Shown here: piece after piece, positions 8,743 through 37,703 of the stretch
Position numbering within the stretch: the stretch's first letter is position 1
Layout of the letters: each line of letters opens with the position of its first letter
Notes under the pieces: model-generated
Databases searched by the model: none
Seen by the model: only the letters and a program-made list of their open reading frames with translations
Told to the model about the DNA's origin: nothing
Made by a program: the position numbers and the translations under genes
From: Halobacteriales archaeon QH_10_67_22
GTDB lineage: Archaea; Halobacteriota; Halobacteria; Halobacteriales; Haloarculaceae
Assembly (NCBI GenBank): GCA_003021305.1
Contig: PXQN01000003.1
Coordinates: forward strand, 40,164-77,866
Direction: 5' to 3'
Length of the DNA: 37,703 nt

Positions 8743-9797
8743 GTGCGCCCGCCTACGAAACCAGCAACTACGAGTACGTCAACGCCCGGGTGCGGTCCCG
8801 GCGTGCGTCGCTGTTCGACGACGACGACTACCGGAAACTGGTTCGGATGGGGACGGGCGAGATCGCCCGTTACATGGAGGAGACCGAGTACGAGGCCGAG
8901 ATGAACCGGCTGGCCTCGCGCTACTCCGGGGTCGACCTCATCGAGTACGCACTGAACCAGAACCTGGCGAAACACTTCGAGGACCTGTTGCGCTGGTCGG
9001 AGGGGCGGCTGTACGACTACGTCGCGCGGTACCTGCGGAAGTTCGACGCCTGGAACGTCAAGACCGCACTCCGTGGGGTCTACACTGACGCCAGCACGTC
9101 CGACGTCGAGGACGACTTCATCCGCGCCGGCGAGTTCTCGGGTGCGTCGCTCGACGAGTTGGTCGAGGCCGACAGCGTCGAGGAGGTGGTCGAGGCCCTC
9201 GAGGAGACGATCTTCGGCGACCCGCTCCGGGCGGCGATGGACGATTACGAGGACACCGGCCTGCTCGTCCCGCTGGAGAACGCGGTCGACCGGACGTTCT
9301 ACGAGACGCTCATCGAGGGGTTGCCCGCAAACCCCGACAGGCCGACCGAGCTGTACGTCCAGTTCCTGCGGGCCGAGATCGATTTCCGGAACGTACGGAA
9401 CGCGTTGCGGCTGGCCCGCACCGCGACCGACATGGACCCGGCCGAGTACTTCATCGAGGGTGGCCGCCTGTTCGACCGGGACGAGCTCCGCGGGCTCGTC
9501 GCCGACGAGGCCCAGCTCGTCGAACATATCCGCGAGAGCACGTACGGCGACGACCTGGCGGACGCGCTGCGCGTCCTCGAGGACGCCGAGACGCTCATCG
9601 GGTTCGAGCACGCCCTCGAGGTCGCACTGCTGGAGTACGCCGGGACGCTGTCGAACCGGTATCCGCTGTCGGTCACGCCGGTGCTGTCGTACGTCCTCGC
9701 GAAAGAACGCGAGGTCGAGAACGTCCGCGCCATCGCGCGGGGACGCGAGGCCGACCTCTCGCCCGAGGAGATACAGGAGGAACTGGTGGTACGATGA
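8739..9797 (+). CDS. atpC: A-type ATP synthase subunit C (central stalk to ring adaptor)
   Basis: 352 residues from the ATG at 8739; the ORF-track entry begins 550 codons too early. It starts MSAPAYETSNYEYVNARVRSR and is helix-rich throughout, as in the V-ATPase d / archaeal C family (pattern NARVRSR near the start, NVRNALRLARTATDM around residue 220). Subunit C is the funnel that couples the K ring to the D/F central axle. ATGA overlap upstream with atpE and downstream with atpF points to coupled translation and fixed stoichiometry. Confidence 0.94.
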   Translation: MSAPAYETSNYEYVNARVRSRRASLFDDDDYRKLVRMGTGEIARYMEETEYEAEMNRLASRYSGVDLIEYALNQNLAKHFEDLLRWSEGRLYDYVARYLRKFDAWNVKTALRGVYTDASTSDVEDDFIRAGEFSGASLDELVEADSVEEVVEALEETIFGDPLRAAMDDYEDTGLLVPLENAVDRTFYETLIEGLPANPDRPTELYVQFLRAEIDFRNVRNALRLARTATDMDPAEYFIEGGRLFDRDELRGLVADEAQLVEHIRESTYGDDLADALRVLEDAETLIGFEHALEVALLEYAGTLSNRYPLSVTPVLSYVLAKEREVENVRAIARGREADLSPEEIQEELVVR

Positions 9798-36938: not shown

Positions 36939-37011
36939 TGGGCCGGCGCGAATTCGAATCGCGGTTACGGCCACCCGAAGGCCGAAGGATACCAAGCTAC
37001 CCCACCGGCCC
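36939..37011 (-). tRNA. tRNA-Pro (anticodon CGG)
   Basis: 73 bases on the minus strand. Acceptor GGGCCGG pairs with CCGGCCC plus discriminator A. The anticodon arm is CGGCC-TTCGGGT-GGCCG, giving anticodon CGG. The T arm is CGCGA-TTCGAAT-TCGCG with the standard TTCGAAT loop. The D arm contains GGGGTAGCTTGGTATCC. No intron and no encoded CCA, as expected in archaea. Its 3' end faces the glycosyltransferase region and it is the natural right-hand border of that region; tRNA 3' ends are common integration sites, although I found no second att-like copy in the window. Confidence 0.93.
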
Positions 37012-37083: not shown

Positions 37084-37283
37084 TCAGTACCGCCGGAAGC
37101 CGTCGGTATCGAGGTAGTTGTGCGCGACGGTGATGGCGTGGTTGGCGTGCAACGGGTGCGGTCCCAGCGAGACGCGCTCGTCGGCAACCTCGGCCAGTCG
37201 CTCCCGTTCCTCGCCGGTGAAGTCGCGGTGGTCCGAGAGCACGAAGGTCACGTCCGCCGGCACCGACGCCTCGACGACCTCGC
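37084..37283 (-). pseudogene. trmY C-terminal remnant
   Basis: Minus-strand frame ending at the TGA at 37084 reads [20 protein letters not shown], then [20 protein letters not shown] and [17 protein letters not shown]. This is the C-terminal third of TrmY, the SPOUT enzyme that methylates N1 of pseudouridine 54 in archaeal tRNA (it includes the SAM-binding knot region). Upstream the homology stops near 37283, and an in-frame stop occurs within the next 60 bases, so the first two-thirds are missing. It abuts, tail out, the plus-strand trmY copy, sharing the CGCCTCGACGAC segment (37267-37278). Confidence 0.75.
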
Positions 37284-37703
37284 CGGCGGTGCCGGTCGCC
37301 TGGACGTGCTCTGTCGATGTGTCTCGGCGGCCTTCTTCCTCTCACACGATATCCGCGAGGACGTCCGGGTCCACCTCGTGTTCGGGGACGCCTACACCGT
37401 GGTCTTCGAGGGACGCGACCTGCGACACCTCAACCCCGACGAACGGTCCACGGCGGCGCTGATACGGACGGCACTGGAACAGCGGGAAGAAGCCATCGGC
37501 CACCAGGCCGTCGAGACCACGCCCGGCGTCTCCATCGTCCGACGGGATTTCGCCGCGACGCTCGAGACCGTCGCCGAGAACACCGTCGTCACGCTCCACG
37601 AGGAGGGCACCCCGGTCGTCGAGGCGTCGGTGCCGGGGGACGTGACCTTCGTGCTCTCGGACCACCGGGGTTTCACGGCGGCCGAGCACGAGCGACTGGC
37701 CGA
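37267..37703 (+). CDS. trmY: tRNA (pseudouridine(54)-N1)-methyltransferase, both ends incomplete
   Basis: Absent from the ORF track because it has no ATG and runs off the window. Frame with codon start 37291 reads [40 protein letters not shown], then [20 protein letters not shown] and finally [20 protein letters not shown]. This is TrmY from about residue 20 to 150. The expected N-terminal ~20 residues (usually MRxFVV...) are not there: upstream the open frame continues into the antisense of the minus-strand remnant, with only GTG codons as possible starts (37228, 37156, 37147). Either the gene is inactivated, or a chimeric N-terminus replaced the original. The last ~45 residues are outside the window. 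Confidence 0.8.

Follow-up and report, generated by a model that had tools for sequence, protein, structure and literature searches.

Archaeal TrmY is the methyltransferase responsible for m1-pseudouridine at position 54 of tRNA (PMC7912444). Chimeric joins of the kind considered below have been characterized in one MDA library, in which 85% of 475 chimeric junctions were inverted; in most of the inverted chimeras, less than 10 kb separated the joined segments, and priming occurred mostly through 2–21 nt of complementarity (PMC1855051). The window (the whole 37,703-nucleotide stretch that was analyzed) corresponds to positions 40164–77866 of contig C71 in a haloarchaeal genome bin of 94 contigs and 2.5 Mb that is 77% complete, and its last 620 bases consist of two trmY pieces placed head-to-head (Table 1). 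Since C71 is 77,866 bp long, position 37703 is the exact end of the contig, and the right arm of the structure runs off it. A search of a plasmid collection gave no match. On the sequence evidence set out below, the arrangement most likely arose as an artefact of the assembly or the library, not through a real rearrangement of the gene. We consider it very probable that a single trmY locus was folded back in a chimera or misjoin in which alleles of different strains are mixed.

Table 1. Features at the right end of the window (window coordinates).
Feature	Coordinates	Strand	Basis or remark
tRNA-Pro (CGG)	36939..37011	-	ARAGORN; native downstream neighbour of trmY
trmY 3′ part, codons ~133–198 plus stop, native synteny	37084..37279	-	PF04013 profile 139–197; alignment with 32 relatives' sequences
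trmY body, codons ~20–165, inverted, cut by contig end	37267..37703	+	PF04013 profile 19–165
Putative fold-back junction, 12–13 base microhomology CGCCTCGACGACC	37267..37279		At least 10 bases native to the N-terminal side
Inverted partner of the junction GGTCGTCGAGGCG, within the plus-strand copy	37614..37626		
Left inverted-repeat arm	37190..37279		78/90 bases identical to right arm
Right inverted-repeat arm	37614..37703		11/12 differences within 37666–37689

Both pieces matched the TrmY family profile PF04013 well above its curated cut-off of 25.5 bits, the plus-strand piece with an E-value of 4.8e-36 (124.8 bits) and the minus-strand piece with an E-value of 3.6e-16 (59.9 bits). Together with the alignment, this confirmed the assignment made in the initial annotation, in which the minus strand encodes the 3′ end of trmY and the plus strand encodes trmY from about residue 20 on. 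That both copies had lost the N-terminus, as was also proposed there, does not describe the minus-strand copy, which lacks the 5′ two thirds of trmY and not the N-terminus alone. Neither piece forms a complete open reading frame with a start codon, and codons 1 to ~19 were present in neither piece and were not found elsewhere in the bin. The search for an intact trmY that the annotation had suggested likewise turned up no trmY piece in the 77% complete bin beyond the two in the window. Taken together, the two pieces add up to approximately one gene, with an overlap of only 90 bp, and the body absent from the minus-strand piece is provided by the plus-strand piece. This points to one gene folded back on itself as two segments in inverted orientation.

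We detected trmY in 53 of 58 surveyed genomes, the source genome included, and every one of the other 52 trmY-positive genomes gave a single match; among high-quality relatives, 38 of 39 have kept the gene. One relative (G065) gave two trmY matches with equal scores on C1 (27876–28265 and 3312942–3313331), which could reflect either a true duplication or terminal redundancy in a chromosome that was not closed. In the comparison of tRNA-Pro–trmY synteny suggested in the initial annotation, tRNA-Pro(CGG) and the trmY 3′ end formed one unbroken alignment in the nearest of the relatives compared, a congener (G001), and in G013, indicating that the minus-strand piece is in its native place. On the other side of the gene, in G013, G002 and G021, the trmY start faces cyt-like and YdjM-like genes (names assigned from sequences). 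In the present bin both of these genes are terminal on a small contig, C73, whose sequence breaks off ~280 bases beyond the start codon of the cyt-like gene, following a palindromic repeat that occurs at least 72 times in the bin. The position of these upstream neighbours is most simply explained by a native order of C73, short gap, trmY and tRNA-Pro, interrupted at that gap in the assembly.

This survey bears directly on the mechanism put forward in the initial annotation, namely that two divergently placed trmY alleles existed in one genome and that the DNA between them was deleted through a 12-base match. The 12-mer does lie in the right orientation for such an event, and the two arms do differ from each other; however, the model requires an ancestral head-to-head trmY pair, to which the 52 other genomes bearing trmY, with one gene apiece, lend no support. 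It would also leave the cell without TrmY, a gene that nearly all high-quality relatives retain, and the structure coincides with a contig end. We therefore regard this deletion as highly improbable.

The short match on which the deletion model relies is itself exact, as had been noted: CGCCTCGACGAC occurs at 37267–37278 and its complement GTCGTCGAGGCG at 37615–37626, and one further base pairs (37279 with 37614), extending the inverted match to 13 bases. By comparison with the congener (L066), ~10 of these bases (CTCGACGACC) alone are demonstrably native to the N-terminal side. The plus-strand copy contains one single 13-base inverted pair, and an inverted 12-mer pair of any kind was found in only 2 of 32 trmY sequences from relatives. 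Given this rarity, it is unlikely that the match at the junction arose by chance, and homology-guided joining, whether in vivo or in vitro, is indicated. The inverted 12–13-mers stand on both sides of a 334-bp trmY body, an arrangement that would also be compatible with a real inversion or a phase-variable switch of that body. Such a switch predicts that N-terminal codons should follow position 37626 on the minus strand, whereas we found a second C-terminal part there, and the first ~19 codons were not found in the bin. A simple inversion between the 12-mers was rejected on the C-terminal identity of the sequence past 37626, and we consider it exceedingly unlikely that a genuine switch of this type exists at the locus.

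Comparison of the two arms showed 78 of 90 bases to be identical, which bears out the earlier count by hand (77 of 89). The differences are far from evenly spread: 11 of the 12 are concentrated within a single patch of 24 bp (P ~1.5e-5 under random placement); outside it, 65 of 66 bases are identical, with one difference. The 12 differences cause several amino-acid changes and no frame break. When the patch was compared with trmY from relatives, the plus-strand version had a mean of 9.8 mismatches and the minus-strand version a mean of 9.1, while a random-change null for the plus-strand patch gave a mean of 14.2 mismatches (P = 0.0002). We thus rejected sequencing error in the right arm, as the patch is natural TrmY sequence that is approximately as near to the relatives as the other arm. 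Its nearness to relatives suggests instead that the right arm is a natural variant and that strain alleles have been mixed, the simplest source of the variant being a different strain present in the sample. An intramolecular fold-back alone would produce identical arms, and as these arms differ at 12 of 90 positions, a second strain must be involved. The initial annotation had concluded that there are two alleles and not a simple fold-back; here, one locus folded back, with a second strain variant, is favoured over two copies.

The same differences could be read as the mark of a real inverted partial duplication, in which the quarter of the genome that was not assembled holds an intact trmY, the present structure being a pseudogene built from two partial copies. 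Arms that have diverged in amino-acid sequence with the frame kept open would be consistent with this, and a bin of only 77% completeness could have missed an intact copy. On the other hand, the minus-strand piece already fills the conserved trmY locus by tRNA-Pro, no surveyed relative has a second trmY, and near-complete identity outside the patch fits poorly with copies that have long been separate. The clustering of the differences argues for one locus and not two old copies, and a partial duplication combined with a missing intact gene is the less simple account; we judge it unlikely.

We also looked for inverted pairs lying close together in ~2.07 Mb of the bin. Most of those found were copies of dispersed palindromic repeats, along with a few in single-copy DNA. 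The repeats of the bin include a palindromic MITE-like element of ~111–118 bp with the ends TACTGTCGGACACAAG (e.g., L140 3616–3733, G000:C73), of which at least 72 non-redundant copies occur in the scanned sequence and none in the window, and a second, near-palindromic family of ~82–90 bp (e.g., L076 4274–4355 and L123 16113–16200) with ~200 or more BLAST matches in the bin contigs that were searched, some of them counted twice where loci overlap. Among the single-copy cases, contig C19 (L086 12222–12521) carries a perfect 99-bp inverted repeat flanking a gap of 102 Ns, which is typical of a scaffold join in the wrong orientation. In contig C62 (L129 9016–10595), an inverted 135-bp copy of sequence from farther upstream in fixC, with 4 mismatches, lies inside the same fixC and replaces the native sequence, with a frame break near 9500. 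The two sides of this join have a 9-base microhomology, CGGGCGCCC, in common, homology to a solved FixC (7koe_C) ends at the join, and downstream of it the sequence runs on into the expected ferredoxin-like partner; this fixC looks like a second assembly chimera. From C19 and C62, we concluded that inverted misjoins occur in this assembly, with slightly differing arms in one of them. We found no systematic occurrence of hairpins at contig ends: among 182 contig-end pieces, which leave out the right ends of C86, C87, C88, C92, C93 and C94, only the right end of C71 has a hairpin arm running off it, and contig ends of this assembly thus do not generally show such a structure. The possibility that two strains had been assembled into a chimera, raised in the initial annotation as an alternative, is thus the one that gained support, from the contig end, the single-copy trmY of relatives, the other inverted misjoins and the 90-bp overlap.

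Under the favoured reading of one folded-back locus, the genome would carry one ordinary trmY on the minus strand beside tRNA-Pro, and the contig would be correct, toward the start of the gene, up to codon ~133. There, an inverted match of 10–13 bases between the region of codons ~133–137 and that of codons ~19–23 would have led to a wrong join, either via a chimeric molecule formed by fold-back or template switching or via a misjoin by the assembler or during gap-filling. Past the join, the contig would retrace the same gene on the opposite strand, in the version of a strain variant, until the data end. The join would have arisen in the library or in the assembly, with an assembler or gap-filling misjoin and an amplification chimera as equal candidates. 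Usual de Bruijn word sizes exceed 12–13 bases, and a match of this length therefore makes a chimeric read or loose gap-filling more likely than a plain graph error.

We further considered that the population might contain a strain with a real fold-back trmY, two C-terminal alleles and no intact gene, which seems very unlikely to us. If such a strain existed, its tRNAs would be expected to lack m1-pseudouridine at position 54, and the locus would be a case in which a tRNA methyltransferase that nearly all haloarchaea possess has been lost naturally. Taken as an artefact, the structure serves only as a warning that this assembly contains inverted misjoins in single-copy genes and that trmY should be counted neither as absent from the bin nor as duplicated in it.

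Set against archaeal TrmY as described, both pieces are clearly TrmY and lie beside tRNA-Pro(CGG) as in the congener, but each is incomplete, with codons 1 to ~19 not found in the bin. The likeness to the MDA or template-switch chimeras of PMC1855051 rests on the form of the junction: an inverted join of segments less than 10 kb apart, a short complementary match, and loss of the intervening DNA. It differs from them in that the arms are not identical and a second strain variant is involved. With metagenome misjoins and strain chimeras, the locus has in common its place at a contig end, its mixed alleles and its origin in a scaffolded draft bin that also holds the C19 and C62 misjoins, whereas the match at the junction, at only 12–13 bases, sets it apart from these.
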